From the NCBI GenBank assembly GCA_947584965.1, contig CANPWQ010000005.1, forward strand, positions 1 through 60,664: a stretch of 60,664 nucleotides of DNA, written 5' to 3'. Shown here one piece after another: positions 4,060 through 15,692 of the stretch. Positions within the stretch are counted from its first letter, which is position 1, and each line of letters starts with the position of its first letter. Made by a program: the position numbers and the translations under genes. This DNA is from Candidatus Gastranaerophilales bacterium. Lineage in GTDB: Bacteria > Cyanobacteriota > Vampirovibrionia > Gastranaerophilales > Gastranaerophilaceae. The notes under the pieces are model-generated. The model was not told the origin of the DNA. It did no database searches and worked only from the letters and a program-made list of their open reading frames with translations.

Positions 4060-5040
4060 ATGGTAAAATTATTTTACAAAATAAAACAAGACAATAAAAG
4101 AATAATTTCATTTTGCGGATTAAATTTATTTTCTTACACTAAAAAAAATAAAAATTTGAAAATATATGAATTTTTAGAAAAATACAGATATATTTTAAAT
4201 AATACGACAGAAGAAAACGAAAATGAAAAAGAAATTATAAATAGCAAAATAAATAATCCTATATGGCAATATTGGGAAAAACCAAATAAACAATATAACG
4301 GGGAAGCGAAAAATAAAAAAGCAAATTCAGTTTCCACTCCAATCATTGTTCAAAAATGTTTTGAAAGTGTAAAAAAATTTTCAGGGAACAGGCAAGTTAT
4401 TGTACTCAATGATAATAACATATCTGACTATATTACAATTCCAACTTATATATTAGAAAAATTAAAAAACGGAATAATAACTCGTACTCATTTTTCAGAT
4501 TATTTAAGAACCTGCCTGCTTTTAAAATACGGCGGCACTTGGATTGATGCAACAGTCTTGCTTACAGATAATATCCCAAATGAAATTACATTTTCAGATT
4601 TTTTCGTTTTTAAATCAATTCTTTTTTATAATTTAAGAGAAATTCCCTCAATAAAATTGTTAGAATGGAATAATGATAATATGAGTATTTCAAGTTGGTT
4701 TATTCATTCAAAACCTAATAATATGATTTTAAAATATACAAAATTATTTTTGGATGAATATTGGAAAAACGAAAATAAATTAATCAACTATTTTTTATTT
4801 CATTATTGGATAACATTTTTAATAATAAACAATAAAGAATGTGCTCAAATATATAATAATATGCCGAATAAATCAAACTTTGCTCCTCATTTATTGCAAA
4901 ATAATTTGTTTAGAGCTTATGATGAAGAATTATTTAATGAAATTAAATCTTTAACGCCCATTCATAAATTAACGTATAAATATAAAATGCTTGAAAATAA
5001 AAATTTATTTATAAACAAAATAATTGAAACAAAAATTTAA
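4060..5040 (+). CDS. Capsular polysaccharide synthesis-type glycosyltransferase
   Basis: A 326-residue protein resembling the Caps_synth/GT32-like sugar transferases that build capsule or LPS side chains from nucleotide sugars. I see the early IWQYWEKP segment, a Rossmann-like region ending in VIVLND, and the hallmark FSDYLRTCLLLKYGGTWIDA near residues 140-165, where the W-x-D plays the DxD metal/donor role. It is cytosolic or peripheral, with no signal peptide. The coding DNA is exceptionally A+T rich, consistent with transferred surface-glycan genes. It is followed by a convergent acetyltransferase whose stop region overlaps its end by 4 bp. Confidence 0.75.
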   Translation: MVKLFYKIKQDNKRIISFCGLNLFSYTKKNKNLKIYEFLEKYRYILNNTTEENENEKEIINSKINNPIWQYWEKPNKQYNGEAKNKKANSVSTPIIVQKCFESVKKFSGNRQVIVLNDNNISDYITIPTYILEKLKNGIITRTHFSDYLRTCLLLKYGGTWIDATVLLTDNIPNEITFSDFFVFKSILFYNLREIPSIKLLEWNNDNMSISSWFIHSKPNNMILKYTKLFLDEYWKNENKLINYFLFHYWITFLIINNKECAQIYNNMPNKSNFAPHLLQNNLFRAYDEELFNEIKSLTPIHKLTYKYKMLENKNLFINKIIETKI

Positions 5041-5594
5041 TTATCTTTAATTTTTTTAGCGGGGACACCATAAGCAACACAGTTATCGGGAATATCTTTA
5101 GTAACAACAGAACCTGCTCCGATTACAACATTATTCCCAATTGTAACACCACCCAAAACAACAACATTTCCTCCAATCCAGACGTTATTACCGACCGTAA
5201 TCGGTTTGGCATATTCCAGCCCTTTATTTCTTGTTTCGTAATCAAGAGGATGTCCTGCCGCGTAAAATCCGCAATTAGGCGCTATAAAAACATTATCTCC
5301 AAAAGTTACTTTTGCGCAGTCTAAAATTATAAGATTATGATTTGAATAAAAATTTTCTCCGATTTCAATATTATATCCGTAATCACAGATAAAAGGTTGT
5401 TCTATCAGGAATTTTTCTTTAGTTTTACCGACAATTTTTTTTATTAAAATCTCTCTTTCGTTAATTTTATCGGGAGAAATATTATTGTACTGAAAACACA
5501 AAGTTTTACATTTAGTCCTTTCTTGTATTAAGGACTCATCATAATTGGCGTCATATAATTCGCCTTTAAGCATTTTTTCTTTTTCGGTTGTCAT
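5037..5594 (-). CDS. LacA/Maa-type O-acetyltransferase (left copy)
   Basis: This is a left-handed beta-helix acetyltransferase of the maltose/galactoside/NodL group, transferring acetyl from acetyl-CoA to a sugar hydroxyl. The 185-residue length is typical. The N-terminal Mac domain (EKEKMLKGELYDA) is present, hexapeptide repeats fill residues 70-170, and the catalytic His is His115 in AAGHPLD. It lies among surface-glycan genes and probably decorates a polysaccharide. It is an exact duplicate of the gene at 10523-11080, and it is divergent from the truncated GT39-like copy. Confidence 0.85.
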   Translation of the reverse strand: MTTEKEKMLKGELYDANYDESLIQERTKCKTLCFQYNNISPDKINEREILIKKIVGKTKEKFLIEQPFICDYGYNIEIGENFYSNHNLIILDCAKVTFGDNVFIAPNCGFYAAGHPLDYETRNKGLEYAKPITVGNNVWIGGNVVVLGGVTIGNNVVIGAGSVVTKDIPDNCVAYGVPAKKIKDN

Positions 5595-6104
5595 ATATAT
5601 CAGATTATTATAAAAATATTTAATTGTATAATATTTATTACAAGGAACAAAATTAATGTTAAAAAAAATTATTAATTATAAATTTCAAATAATTTTTATT
5701 TTAATAATCTGCTTCGGGATATATCTGAGAACAAGATTATATTTGTTTAAAGCAGAATTTTGGCTTGATGAAGTTATGCTTGCTTTATCTTTTATCGATA
5801 AAGGCATAGGTGCATTATTTCTGCCTTTGGAAGCCGAGCAAAAAGCACCTCCGTTATATTTATGTTCGGTTTATTTCATAGTGAAATTTTTCGGATTTAA
5901 TGAATATTCTTTCAGATTTATTTCATATATATCAGGCTGTTTATCCGTTATAGCTTTTTATTTCCTTTTAAATGCTTATGTAAAAGATAATATCGGAAAA
6001 ACATTTGCTTTATTTCTTTTTGCAATATCTATTCCGCTCATTTATAATTCCGCAGAATTTAAACCATACTCGAGCGATACATTAATTTGTATATTACTGT
6101 TTCT
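5037..6104. repeat. 1,068-bp direct repeat, left copy
   Basis: The segment reads as identical to 10523-11590 (constant offset 5,486 bp) over every line I compared, and the encoded proteins agree residue for residue. It contains the whole acetyltransferase gene, the divergent intergenic region and the first 150 codons of the GT39-like gene. The junctions are sharp: sequence diverges at 5036/10522 and at 6105/11591. Confidence 0.9.
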
Positions 6105-10522: not shown

Positions 10523-11080
10523 TTAATTATCTTTAATTTTTTTAGCGGGGACACCATAAGCAACACAGTTATCGGGAATATCTTTAGTAACAACAGAACC
10601 TGCTCCGATTACAACATTATTCCCAATTGTAACACCACCCAAAACAACAACATTTCCTCCAATCCAGACGTTATTACCGACCGTAATCGGTTTGGCATAT
10701 TCCAGCCCTTTATTTCTTGTTTCGTAATCAAGAGGATGTCCTGCCGCGTAAAATCCGCAATTAGGCGCTATAAAAACATTATCTCCAAAAGTTACTTTTG
10801 CGCAGTCTAAAATTATAAGATTATGATTTGAATAAAAATTTTCTCCGATTTCAATATTATATCCGTAATCACAGATAAAAGGTTGTTCTATCAGGAATTT
10901 TTCTTTAGTTTTACCGACAATTTTTTTTATTAAAATCTCTCTTTCGTTAATTTTATCGGGAGAAATATTATTGTACTGAAAACACAAAGTTTTACATTTA
11001 GTCCTTTCTTGTATTAAGGACTCATCATAATTGGCGTCATATAATTCGCCTTTAAGCATTTTTTCTTTTTCGGTTGTCAT
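10523..11080 (-). CDS. LacA/Maa-type O-acetyltransferase (right copy)
   Basis: The protein is residue-for-residue the same as the left copy (185 aa, catalytic His115, hexapeptide beta-helix). It is divergently oriented to the intact GT39-like gene with a 61-bp shared upstream region, which is probably the native arrangement. The unchanged copies imply a recent duplication or ongoing gene conversion. Confidence 0.85.
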   Translation of the reverse strand: MTTEKEKMLKGELYDANYDESLIQERTKCKTLCFQYNNISPDKINEREILIKKIVGKTKEKFLIEQPFICDYGYNIEIGENFYSNHNLIILDCAKVTFGDNVFIAPNCGFYAAGHPLDYETRNKGLEYAKPITVGNNVWIGGNVVVLGGVTIGNNVVIGAGSVVTKDIPDNCVAYGVPAKKIKDN

Positions 11081-11590
11081 ATATATCAGATTATTATAAA
11101 AATATTTAATTGTATAATATTTATTACAAGGAACAAAATTAATGTTAAAAAAAATTATTAATTATAAATTTCAAATAATTTTTATTTTAATAATCTGCTT
11201 CGGGATATATCTGAGAACAAGATTATATTTGTTTAAAGCAGAATTTTGGCTTGATGAAGTTATGCTTGCTTTATCTTTTATCGATAAAGGCATAGGTGCA
11301 TTATTTCTGCCTTTGGAAGCCGAGCAAAAAGCACCTCCGTTATATTTATGTTCGGTTTATTTCATAGTGAAATTTTTCGGATTTAATGAATATTCTTTCA
11401 GATTTATTTCATATATATCAGGCTGTTTATCCGTTATAGCTTTTTATTTCCTTTTAAATGCTTATGTAAAAGATAATATCGGAAAAACATTTGCTTTATT
11501 TCTTTTTGCAATATCTATTCCGCTCATTTATAATTCCGCAGAATTTAAACCATACTCGAGCGATACATTAATTTGTATATTACTGTTTCT
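10523..11590. repeat. 1,068-bp direct repeat, right copy
   Basis: This is the second copy of 5037-6104. Here the GT39-like gene continues past the repeat boundary to its natural end, so this side keeps the complete gene and the left copy is the truncated one. Confidence 0.9.
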
Positions 11591-12788
11591 TTTTTACAGG
11601 TATATATCTAATCCAGTGTCGCACTTTACCGCCGACTCATCTTCGCCGTACAAGTGCTCACTTTTTAAAGTTGCCACTCCAAAATTTCGCTCACGTTCCT
11701 TATCGCGAAATTTTCTCGGACATTATTCAAAAAATATTGATTTAATAAAAACAAAGGGGGGGGGGAATTTTAAACAAGCATTATTATATACCCTGCTGAC
11801 TATATTATTAATCTTTTTCTCGTTCCCTGCGGCATTTGTTATTTTTTCAATGGTAATAACCAACTGCATATTTAATAGAAAAATAACATTAACATCTATT
11901 TCAATAATCACGGGAATAATTATCTCGGGAACAGTTATTTATTTAATGGATACAAATGTTTATCCTTTTATGCGGAATTTTTGGTGGGAACATGAAACTA
12001 AAAGCATAGAATATATGTTTTTAACAAGTATTAAATATTTTATGGACAAAGTCGGAAATAATTTTTGTTACCAATTTCTTACTTTAGTATTACTCGGATT
12101 GATAATTCTTTTTAAAGAAACAAAGCAAACAGCGGTATTTTGTTTATTATGTATTGCAAGCCCGTTAATAGCAAGCATACTAAAATTATATCCTTTTGAA
12201 GATAGATTAGTACTATTTCTTTTACCGATATTTTTATTATTAATAGCAAAATTATTTGATTATAACATTTTTAAAATCACTTCCGGCGCACATGAAATAA
12301 TACAAAAAACAATCTTATGTGTACTTTTAATATTAATAATCTATATAAAAATTCCGTATATAAATTACAACCAAGATAGGTTAATCAATTTTTGCAAATA
12401 TAACGATTATAAACACACCCTGAAATACAGACAAGAAGTTAAAAAAGTCAGTTTATATGTTTTAAATAGCTATCAAAAAAATATAAAAATACTTACCACA
12501 AATGAGTTTTATTATTATATAAGATATTATAACAAATACTACAATATGAAAAAAAACATACCTATAACATATTTAGGCTGGATAAATAAAGACGAAATCG
12601 GTAATATAATAACAAAGTTTATTGATGAAAATAACGGTAAATATACAATGTGGTTTATCAGCAGAAGTAATGAATATTATTTCAGAAATTGGAATTGGAA
12701 GTATTTAAAGGAAAAACTGCAGGAAAAAAAAATTAAATATGGCGTTATTCCGGGGTTTGGAAATGCTTATTTAGTGTACGGTATCTAA
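11142..12788 (+). CDS. GT39-like multi-TM glycosyltransferase, probably phase-variable
   Basis: A 548-residue membrane protein of the PMT/ArnT-like GT-C group, which moves sugars from lipid carriers on the outer face of the inner membrane. It has an N-terminal TM helix, then FWLDEVML with the Asp/Glu pair expected in the first periplasmic loop, about ten further hydrophobic segments, and a soluble C-terminal part (from about residue 430). Two oddities sit in one loop (about residues 155-210): a G+C-rich palindromic insertion (11611-11722) and a run of ten G (11756-11765) read as Lys-Gly-Gly-Gly. At ten G the frame is open. At nine or eleven G it stops within about a dozen codons. AAGGAA precedes the ATG. 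Confidence 0.75.
   Translation: MLKKIINYKFQIIFILIICFGIYLRTRLYLFKAEFWLDEVMLALSFIDKGIGALFLPLEAEQKAPPLYLCSVYFIVKFFGFNEYSFRFISYISGCLSVIAFYFLLNAYVKDNIGKTFALFLFAISIPLIYNSAEFKPYSSDTLICILLFLFYRYISNPVSHFTADSSSPYKCSLFKVATPKFRSRSLSRNFLGHYSKNIDLIKTKGGGNFKQALLYTLLTILLIFFSFPAAFVIFSMVITNCIFNRKITLTSISIITGIIISGTVIYLMDTNVYPFMRNFWWEHETKSIEYMFLTSIKYFMDKVGNNFCYQFLTLVLLGLIILFKETKQTAVFCLLCIASPLIASILKLYPFEDRLVLFLLPIFLLLIAKLFDYNIFKITSGAHEIIQKTILCVLLILIIYIKIPYINYNQDRLINFCKYNDYKHTLKYRQEVKKVSLYVLNSYQKNIKILTTNEFYYYIRYYNKYYNMKKNIPITYLGWINKDEIGNIITKFIDENNGKYTMWFISRSNEYYFRNWNWKYLKEKLQEKKIKYGVIPGFGNAYLVYGI
11611..11722. repeat. Palindromic element inserted in frame within a gene
   Basis: About 110 bp markedly richer in G+C than the flanking gene, containing the perfect inverted repeat AAAATTTCGC (11681-11690) / GCGAAATTTT (11705-11714). 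It encodes a Ser/Arg/Pro-rich hydrophilic stretch between two TM helices that family members normally join by a short loop. It resembles intergenic palindromic repeats that have landed in a coding sequence without breaking the frame. Confidence 0.55.
11756..11765 (+). repeat. G10 homopolymer tract (candidate contingency locus)
   Basis: Ten consecutive G residues inside the GT39-like gene, in DNA that is otherwise strongly A+T rich. Such tracts mutate by slipped-strand mispairing and switch surface-glycan genes in Campylobacter and Helicobacter. One extra G brings TAA into frame two codons later; one fewer brings TGA into frame about eleven codons later. Confidence 0.8.
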
Positions 12789-12811: not shown

Positions 12812-13573
12812 CTAGTTTTTTTGTGAAGAAGATTTTAAAGGTTGAGCAATTAATTTCATATTAAAATCCATTAATTCTTTTTTCTTAGCTTTATATTTTT
12901 CCTCGTCAAAATCTTCAAGTCCGAGTTTTTTTCTGTCTTCATCAGTTAGACTATTAAAAATACTGTTTGTTCTTCTGAATATATCCGAAAAACGTACCGA
13001 TGAATTTTCTATGTGACCGTATAGTATGGGAGGATTACCTGTTTCATTTTTATTAAAAATATAGTTAACAGAAAGTGCAATATCAGTTCTATGCAATCCC
13101 TGAGCACACGCTATATAGAAATCACCATTATTAATAATATTAAACAACTCGGGAAGAATTTCTATTATTTGTCTGTCGGAAGTATTTTTTGCATCCATTG
13201 GAAAATGCAAGTATGTCATAGAATTTTCTTCTACTTTGTATTGAAAATTTTTAGAAAAGTCACTTGTTTTTAAGTCTATAATATGTTTAATGCCCAAATT
13301 TTTCAAAGCAGGCAAAAATCTTTGATTTTTTTTTATTGATAAACTTTCACCTCTTAAGCCCTGACTGTCTAAGGAATGAAGATTGGGTATATCAATATTT
13401 ACATTATCATACTTACGATTTTTGTTGATTGAGCAAAAACTGACAGGAGGACAATACAATCCTGATAACTTTACCCATCTGCTATTATATAATTTCAATT
13501 GAGTATTTTTATTACTTGATTGAACTTTTGGCTTCATATATGTATTGTTTGAAAATGTCACGTTGTAAAACAT
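12812..13573 (-). CDS. CX5R (dual-specificity/tyrosine) phosphatase-like protein
   Basis: A 253-residue protein with the protein-tyrosine phosphatase signature FYIACAQGLHRTD: Cys156, then five residues, then Arg162 followed by Thr. The preceding strand/loop HIIDLKTSDFSKN and YLHFPMDAK correspond to the IDLR and general-acid regions of DSP-type enzymes. The first 75 residues are Asn/Ser/Lys rich with no known domain, and no clear signal peptide is present. GGAAG precedes the ATG. Its paralogue is the next gene on the same strand (48 bp upstream of its start). Substrate unknown: a phosphoprotein, phosphoinositide or sugar phosphate is possible. Confidence 0.65.
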   Translation of the reverse strand: MFYNVTFSNNTYMKPKVQSSNKNTQLKLYNSRWVKLSGLYCPPVSFCSINKNRKYDNVNIDIPNLHSLDSQGLRGESLSIKKNQRFLPALKNLGIKHIIDLKTSDFSKNFQYKVEENSMTYLHFPMDAKNTSDRQIIEILPELFNIINNGDFYIACAQGLHRTDIALSVNYIFNKNETGNPPILYGHIENSSVRFSDIFRRTNSIFNSLTDEDRKKLGLEDFDEEKYKAKKKELMDFNMKLIAQPLKSSSQKN

Positions 13574-13621: not shown

Positions 13622-15574
13622 TCATTGTTTAACATTTGAAAGATTTAATATTTTTGTTCTTTGGGTATACTCTTCAATAAACGAATCGAGGTCTTGCCAA
13701 CCTAATTTTTTTATAAACTCATCATCAATATAAAGATAATTACCGTCTTTCCCTTTTTGTAAAATATCATTTAAAAATCTTTTAACCATTTGCAGAGATT
13801 TTTGCGGATTTTTAGATTCAAATGAAGGAGTTATAGTTTCGTTAGGATTTAATAAATAGTTTATTCCGAAAGCAACATCGGTTCTGTTTGTACCCTCATT
13901 ACAACCGATATAAAACTTACCATTATCCATTGCTTCAAAAAAGCAGGCTAAATTATTTTTAAAAGAATTAATTTGCTCTACTGTAAGTTTTTGGTCATAG
14001 TCAATAGGAAAATGTACATAGCCGAGTCCGTCTCTGCTACATTGTTGTACACTTCTGTCAAGGTTGCTTTCAGCTCTTAGGTCAATAACAGTATCAATAC
14101 CCAATTCTTTAAGTTTTGGCATAAATTTTTTATTCGTTTTAGAAAAAATACTGCTTCCCCTTACTCCTTTTTTGTTAGTAGCAAGTGTAAGATTTTGTAT
14201 ATTTAATGAACAAAGCTCATCATAATCAAACGGAAGATTTAAGGTTTGTGCACTTCCAATATCAGTTGCGAAAATTCTACAAGAAGTATAATCATCTGTC
14301 AGTTCATAAGCTCCGGTATCTTCTTCAAAAAGCTTATTTCTTAATATATCCATACCGGGATGATCTTCCCATAATTCATCAGGAATTGCTTCAGCAGCAG
14401 CACGGCGAGATTGTTTAGAGTCAACACTGTCAACCACTTCCGTCAAATCAATTATATCTTTATTAACCGAAGATTTTGCCGCACCTTGAGATATTTTATT
14501 ATCTGCAGCATCCGAAACTGCGTCATCAATCTGTAGTACTTTAGAAGCAGTATTAATATTATCGGGAATATCATGAGCAGATAATTGTTTTATTGGTGTA
14601 TCTGCGCTTATCCCGTCAGAAATAATTTTGCCTTTAACAGCCCCTGCAGCTTTACCTGCTAATCTAAACCCACCGCCGATAACAGGCGATAAAATAAGTC
14701 CGCCGACAGCACCTTGAGCACCTGCTTTAATAACGTCTTCACCTTCCAGCGCAGCTCTTACCATATTATCAGATGCCCCGCTTAAAGCACCATCAATAGC
14801 CATACCTGCACCTAAGGCTGCAGCTCGTTTTACAATACTACCGCCTGCGACATCAACGCTCTGAGTAAGAATTGCAGATTTAAGTCCTTGCTTTGCCGTT
14901 TGTTTAGCAACTTCAGCAGCGACTTGTTTTCCGCCCTGTTCAATTACTTCAAGTCCTAATTTTTTACCGATTGTCTTAGTAACACAATTTCCGAGACCGT
15001 TAGTAACAGGAGCCATTATACCGTTAATTGCACCGGTAGCAATATCATATAAAACATCCTTGCTATTATAGTCTTTTCCTGTAGCAATAGCGTCACCACC
15101 CTTAATTCCAATTTTAGCACCTGCCCCTGTTGCCGCAGCAATTGCAAGTCCTGTCGCAATTGATGTTCCTCCGGTAGGAACTGCAAGTGCAAAAGCAGTC
15201 ATTGATATTATTCCCGAAGCTATATCAGCTACTACATCAAGACACATTTTTTGACCGACCGCATACTTTTCAAGAGCTTGTTGTGCCGTTTCCTGAGATA
15301 TTTCCCCTTTTTCTGCCTGTTTTATCAGTTCTTCCACTTGCTTTGAACCGGATTTCATACCAAAAATATTTTTAAATCCGTCCCAAAGTTTACCAATAAC
15401 CCCTTGTTGATTTTTTATTTTTTCATAAGATTTTCTTATATCCGATTTATTTTCCGCATTTAACGAAAATGAATCTGTATATGTCTTTTGATATATATTA
15501 AAGTTTTTATTTGCTGTTTTATGAATTGTATTTACTTTTGGTATCGAGGTATTATTGCCAATTCCTAAGCCCAT
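13622..15574 (-). CDS. Large protein with hydrophobic Gly/Ala-rich core and C-terminal CX5R phosphatase domain
   Basis: A 650-residue protein. The C-terminal quarter repeats the fold of its neighbour: TVIDLRAESNLDR, then YVHFPIDYDQ, then FYIGCNEGTNRTDVAFGINYLL with the Cys-x5-Arg-Thr loop. Residues about 110-320 are Gly/Ala/Ile rich with several helices able to enter a membrane (for example GIISMTAFALAVPTGGTS), reminiscent of pore-forming or translocated effector proteins. I place the start at the ATG at 15574 because AAAGGAG lies just upstream; an upstream ATG at 15637 lacks one. A delivered or envelope-associated phosphatase is speculative. Confidence 0.6.
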   Translation of the reverse strand: MGLGIGNNTSIPKVNTIHKTANKNFNIYQKTYTDSFSLNAENKSDIRKSYEKIKNQQGVIGKLWDGFKNIFGMKSGSKQVEELIKQAEKGEISQETAQQALEKYAVGQKMCLDVVADIASGIISMTAFALAVPTGGTSIATGLAIAAATGAGAKIGIKGGDAIATGKDYNSKDVLYDIATGAINGIMAPVTNGLGNCVTKTIGKKLGLEVIEQGGKQVAAEVAKQTAKQGLKSAILTQSVDVAGGSIVKRAAALGAGMAIDGALSGASDNMVRAALEGEDVIKAGAQGAVGGLILSPVIGGGFRLAGKAAGAVKGKIISDGISADTPIKQLSAHDIPDNINTASKVLQIDDAVSDAADNKISQGAAKSSVNKDIIDLTEVVDSVDSKQSRRAAAEAIPDELWEDHPGMDILRNKLFEEDTGAYELTDDYTSCRIFATDIGSAQTLNLPFDYDELCSLNIQNLTLATNKKGVRGSSIFSKTNKKFMPKLKELGIDTVIDLRAESNLDRSVQQCSRDGLGYVHFPIDYDQKLTVEQINSFKNNLACFFEAMDNGKFYIGCNEGTNRTDVAFGINYLLNPNETITPSFESKNPQKSLQMVKRFLNDILQKGKDGNYLYIDDEFIKKLGWQDLDSFIEEYTQRTKILNLSNVKQ

Positions 15575-15692
15575 ATACACTCCTTTGTTTATATAAAGTT
15601 TTTTTTCATAGTCATATTGTCTTTTTGGATATGGCAAGTTAACAAAACTTATTGTATTATATAAATCAATAGGGAATTTTTGAGGATATATT

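Follow-up and report, generated by a model that had tools for sequence, protein, structure and literature searches.

A run of ten Gs at positions 11756-11765, in the gene of a 548-residue membrane enzyme of Candidatus Gastranaerophilales, is probably a slipped-strand phase-variation switch, and would be one locus in a phasome that comprises about 42 poly-G tracts and diversifies surface glycans, pili and kelch-repeat proteins. The window (the whole stretch of 60,664 nucleotides analysed) belongs to a genome assembly of 1,733,648 bases in 74 contigs, 94.6% complete. We infer slippage at this site because of the tract anatomy together with the genome-wide pattern. The window tract is a well-supported further case of a known switch, and the wider phasome is the more interesting part.

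The G10 tract and the membrane enzyme that carries it

The tract is the sole G or C run of at least 7 in the window; A and T runs there show a smooth drop in number with length. Dinucleotide-preserving shuffles gave a mean of 0.01 such runs per window (seen in 1 of 100 shuffles). The computed frame is open at ten Gs for 340 further codons to the stop; one extra G brings TAA after 1 whole codon and one G fewer brings TGA after 10 whole codons, so that the 548-aa frame would stop near residue 210 or 218. These values bear out the first-pass annotation, which had described an improbable ten-G run lying in frame within this gene, a 548-residue frame open at ten, and stops two codons on (gain) or about eleven codons on (loss). 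Poly-G phase-variable sites are recognised by a homopolymer of at least 8, longer than chance would give, within an ORF or a promoter, and by a premature stop on a change of one unit; the tract site shows the first, and the second in the computed frames, and the change would be reversible.

The assembled state, with ten Gs, would be ON, the membrane enzyme being made in full length and the tract contributing to a Lys-Gly-Gly-Gly-Asn stretch of a loop that carries positive charge and probably faces the cytoplasm. A one-G slip in replication would shift the frame into one of the two early stops (OFF), leaving a stub without roughly the last six hydrophobic segments, and a later slippage would restore the frame and return the gene to ON. 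Any benefit of such switching would presumably concern host immunity or phages.

Table 1 Positions in the window of the tract, the enzyme gene and the neighbouring features.
Feature	Position	Strand	Remark
G10 homopolymer	11756..11765	+	Proposed slipped-strand switch; in-frame reading K-GGG-N
548-aa polytopic membrane protein, GT-C/PMT-like glycosyltransferase candidate	11142..12788	+	Hydropathy; sub-threshold PMT_2
Interspersed repeat copy, about 117 bp, in frame (39 codons)	11606..11722	-	Just upstream of G10
First copy of exact 1,068-bp direct repeat	5037..6104		Enzyme gene cut off before tract region
Second copy of exact 1,068-bp direct repeat	10523..11590		Acetyltransferase and 5' part of enzyme gene
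Maltose-type O-acetyltransferase (Mac and hexapeptide)	10523..11080	-	Divergent neighbour of enzyme gene
Caps_synth glycosyltransferase	4060..5040	+	GGGG at 4300-4303 where G036 has G10

The first-pass annotation had called the product a membrane glycosyltransferase; the membrane topology stood, hydropathy indicating a polytopic protein with a K/R-rich loop at the tract, and the glycosyltransferase identity came down to a sub-threshold match. The enzyme resembles the GT-C/PMT glycosyltransferases (Pfam PMT_2) in being polytopic and in a weak match of its N-terminal part to that family (E 0.0075), and differs in falling below the curated cut-off (16.9 bits against a gathering score of 26.1). 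Among the alignment members 3 of 5 matched PMT_2 at E up to 1 (best 0.0013), and the truncated copy of the enzyme matched it weakly, also below the cut-off (E 0.00042). The alignment conserves a W-L-D-E motif, which may correspond to the acidic residues of the first outer loop in GT-C/PMT enzymes. The NCBIfam search gave no match for the enzyme, a sequence search of the PDB with the enzyme alignment gave three chance-level matches (best E 0.26), profile comparison with two further membrane proteins that bear tracts brought no match, and the viral contigs searched held no match; the structure model (pLDDT 36.9) was too poor to be usable for judging a GT-C fold. On this sub-threshold evidence the enzyme is a GT-C/PMT glycosyltransferase candidate.

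Poly-G tracts in the genome and the genes that carry them

The 42 G runs of at least 9 in the genome comprise 26 of G9 (62%), 14 of G10 (33%), one G11 and one G12, and the whole genome holds no run of exactly 7 or 8 Gs. This absence follows from the overlapping hits (145 for G7 minus 61 for G9 gives 84, twice 42), and a direct count of exact G8 also gave zero. A first-order Markov estimate from the window, scaled up to the genome, predicts about 19 runs of at least 7 and about 0.67 of at least 9, hence about 18 of 7-8. A C precedes 25 of the 42 tracts and an A or T follows 41 of them. As a separate observation, G9 tracts are followed by T in 20 of 26 cases and G10 tracts by A in 11 of 14, a pattern as if one base at the tract end alternated between G and T. 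Eight of the 42 tracts lie at most 400 bp from a contig end (1.4 expected if evenly spread), which hints at a population mixture; repeats, strain variation in glycan loci or accessory loci could be other sources of this enrichment.

Thirty-one of the 42 tracts adjoin an open half of at least 100 aa: the two sides share a frame in 18 and differ in 13. The count is a mechanical one, from the longest open frames to either side, and some few of those 13 tracts may precede the start. Where both halves reach at least 50 aa (17 tracts), the frame is kept in 12 and broken in 5. Leaving the window gene apart, 30 longer halves were searched against Pfam at E 0.01; 9 had no match and 21 did, of which 16 are, in our own grouping, glycan-type enzymes or pilins: LicD (2), GT2 (3), GT8, an acyltransferase, FkbM methyltransferase (2), TupA, a DegT aminotransferase, DUF4422, a GT-D-like protein and three prepilin N_methyl proteins. 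The first-pass annotation had proposed, as a check, a search for other poly-G runs in surface genes; such runs lie in these surface-type genes. In four genes the two parts of a single domain, to either side of the tract, lie in different frames (GT8 at L022, GT2 at L025 and L030, LicD at L068), the domain runs on in frame across the tract in two (acyltransferase at L001, LicD at L071), and one GT2 gene continues into a pyruvyl-transferase half. The remaining five matched halves are NFACT (L002), a Chlamydia-PMP repeat, a VIT domain, a weak radical-SAM match and DUF6056. One G10 (L015:1501-1510) lies in a leader upstream of ribosomal-protein genes, whose products we presume to be ribosomal proteins. 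With NFACT, L015 and others among the tract sites, surface genes do not account for every tract.

Four tracts sit between TTGC.. and TATAAT, with a spacer of 19 at G9 in all four. At L066, L073 and L083 closely similar predicted promoters with G9 spacers are followed by ORFs with kelch repeats (Pfam), which begin 43-44 bases past the tract and have a signal sequence by eye; the fourth such tract, L014, has no close gene. The arrangement shares with porA of Neisseria meningitidis (PMC3639595) a G run inside the promoter, here predicted to lie between TTGC.. and TATAAT; unlike porA, the genes here encode kelch-repeat proteins.

These counts bear on two rivals of a slipped-strand switch. The run might simply encode a fixed glycine-rich loop, which selection holds in frame and which hardly switches at all; ten Gs in frame in both species having the tract would fit this, but glycine can be encoded without a pure G run, runs of this kind number 42 in the genome with none of 7-8, the frame is lost across the tract in 13 of 31 tract genes, and the promoter tracts are noncoding, so that we consider a fixed loop unlikely. 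Slippage of RNA polymerase or the ribosome, by which unchanged DNA would yield full-length and short protein in fixed proportions, would also tolerate out-of-frame assembled genes and agrees with the presence of mismatch-repair genes in this genome, but it leaves the promoter-spacer tracts and the empty 7-8 class unexplained; such slippage is better known on A/T runs, and we hold it to be very improbable here.

The slipped-strand phase variation proposed in the first-pass annotation is well supported at the level of the genome (a population of 9 to 12 Gs, an empty 7-8 class, out-of-frame genes, tracts in surface-type genes and promoter spacers, and relatives with the same length peak), whereas variation at the locus itself did not appear, the tract measuring ten in both species that have it.

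Orthologs, relatives and mismatch repair

Four orthologs of the enzyme were found in genome contigs, all titled as Candidatus Gastranaerophilales MAGs, and their isolate names (Lapin) suggest the rabbit gut. In the nearest, G036/L061, an in-frame G10 stands at the corresponding site, and the length is thus ten in two of two species having the tract, with one genome per species. The three others lack the tract and have short clusters of 2-3 Gs there: AAACGGGAAAG, AAAGGTGAAA, AAACGGAAAAA. Because three of the four orthologs are tract-free, the tract was, as judged from these sequences, most simply gained in the branch of the window genome and G036. Members of the gene that read through without the tract had been named beforehand as evidence against a switch; they were seen in three of four orthologs, and we take them to reflect a gain in this branch and not a refutation.

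The Caps_synth gene is a second site with a tract in just one of the two species: it has C-GGGG in the window, and in G036 it has G10 and lies in two frames, the direction of change not being shown. G036 holds 60 tracts of at least 9 (27 of at least 10 and 33 of exact G9), 57 of which, including 30 of the 33 exact-G9 loci, were compared with the window's genome; at matching places, some of them in paralogs, the lengths differ in some pairs (L007/L128 with G10/G9, L082/L107 with G9/G10).

The occurrence of G10 at the same site in G036/L061, a separate MAG, is also evidence on whether the run is a sequencing or assembly artefact, with a wrong length or spurious Gs. The longest run in the window's genome is only 12, and only short clusters of Gs mark the site in the three other orthologs, all of which speaks against it. 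Two relatives, G007 and G008, hold runs of 17 to 32 Gs, one beginning at the first base of its contig, that are probably artefacts, and an exact 1,068-bp repeat lies near the locus; both observations lend an artefact some credit, and we judge it extremely unlikely for this tract. The repeat, 5.5 kb off, leaves some doubt on the local assembly, with the tract itself untouched.

The same length profile occurs in relatives, where exact G8 and exact G9 numbered 2 and 63 (G017), 4 and 33 (G029), 6 and 40 (G032) and 4 and 33 (G036), and in eight g6 genomes counted, with 1-6 exact G8 against 18-48 exact G9. Over 43 genomes exact G8 ranged from 0 to 12, exact G9 being left uncounted in many; G024 had 12 exact G8 and G008 had 9 (exact G9 of both uncounted), and the tract-poor G009 had the opposite shape (5 exact G8, 1 exact G9). 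At least one G9 occurs in 36 of the 41 genomes of the genus and is missing from five, and in the sample of the order exact G9 occurs in 137 of 192 genomes, mostly a few each. Tract-rich genomes are some g1 members (up to 63 exact G9), the nine g6 genomes listed, each with 16 to 48, and single genomes elsewhere with 15 to 22 (G120, G079, G135, G216). The distribution of the poly-G trait across the order is patchy.

Genes for MutS and MutL are present in the window's genome, so missing mismatch repair does not account for its tracts, and mismatch-repair loss was ruled out as their cause in this genome. A search for MutL gave no match over the cut-off in G017, G135, G133, G131, G002, G006 and G022. 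Among these, G017 and G135 carry many tracts where their kin carry few, and G133 and G131 have zero exact G9; with G017 rich and G133 at zero, both without a MutL match, the link between MutL and tracts is loose.

Known phase-variable systems and the repeats beside the tract

The presence of MutS and MutL genes sets the window's genome apart from what is known of Campylobacter and Helicobacter. According to PMC6321876 (PhasomeIt), poly-G/C tracts in Campylobacter peak at 9 (53%) and 10 (26%), with 5 to 81 phase-variable genes per strain, and PMC4965091 gives 29 poly-G/C phase-variable loci for C. jejuni NCTC 11168. The Campylobacter phasome resembles the tracts described here in the G9 then G10 peak, in a location mostly in ORFs and in a similar number per genome; it differs in that the lineage here is unrelated and uncultured, has MutS and MutL genes, and has targets that include kelch-protein promoters and pilins. 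Among the 31 tracts here that adjoin a long half, 8 are poly-C on the chosen coding strand, against 5% in the Campylobacter account (PMC6321876).

We tentatively propose that this lineage has a phasome of its own, on the scale of Campylobacter and with MutS and MutL present, whose two arms would be reading-frame tracts (glycan and pilin genes) and promoter-spacer tracts (kelch-repeat proteins), and whose tracts would be gained from short G clusters, often after C, passing fast through 7-8; taken as a whole, this is a possibility rather than a probability. The present/absent pairs are the enzyme gene, where three orthologs have 2-3 Gs against ten in two species, and the Caps_synth gene.

Gastranaerophilales are non-photosynthetic relatives of Cyanobacteria. 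PMC4040986 fits this status. The first-pass annotation had believed phase variation to be undescribed in this lineage, and the open-licence literature (without most subscription journals and bioRxiv preprints) agrees within that scope. No phase variation in Gastranaerophilales was found there; Melainabacteria with phase variation led only to work on flagellin diversity, where the three mentions of the term stand in the references; Gastranaerophilales with homopolymer gave none on topic by title among the matches listed; and neither Vampirovibrionia nor Gastranaerophilaceae appeared among the matches listed in the wider open-licence literature. Accounts of poly-G phase variation mostly present it as a device of a few mucosal pathogens. 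Its occurrence at full scale in uncultured gut commensals of another lineage would suggest that random surface switching serves more widely in the gut, against hosts or phages, and the switching could be checked from metagenome reads with no culture needed; OFF-phase surface genes in Gastranaerophilales MAGs may be mislabelled as pseudogenes.

The 1,068-bp repeat is full length by BLAST and identical throughout, the direct-repeat search recovering part of it. Its left copy follows the Caps_synth gene and its right copy leads into the full enzyme gene; in G036 the Caps_synth gene stands directly before the enzyme gene, the acetyltransferase being absent between them. Between the two copies are genes for AbiEii, its DUF6088 partner and Mrr_cat, as well as a small ORF whose GTP-binding matches are weak. 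The layout looks like a single-crossover insertion or a tandem duplication, or an assembly loop.

The 117-bp insert upstream of the tract is missing from all four enzyme orthologs found. It has 94-96% identity to four other copies and weaker identity to more, and the repeat occurs in 23 of 40 genomes of the genus, the window's genome included (E 1e-10). Two further copies lie inside long open frames (L039, L040). The repeat resembles Rickettsia palindromic elements in being small, interspersed and placed in frame inside ORFs; the lineage is another one. Rfam scans of six repeat loci gave no match, and that of the window gave tRNA only. Among L032-L041 some copies are longer, with extra inner blocks, and three copies are in frame within long ORFs. 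Downstream of the enzyme gene, the neighbouring proteins at 12812-13573 and 13622-15637 have weak dual-specificity-phosphatase matches below curated cut-offs.
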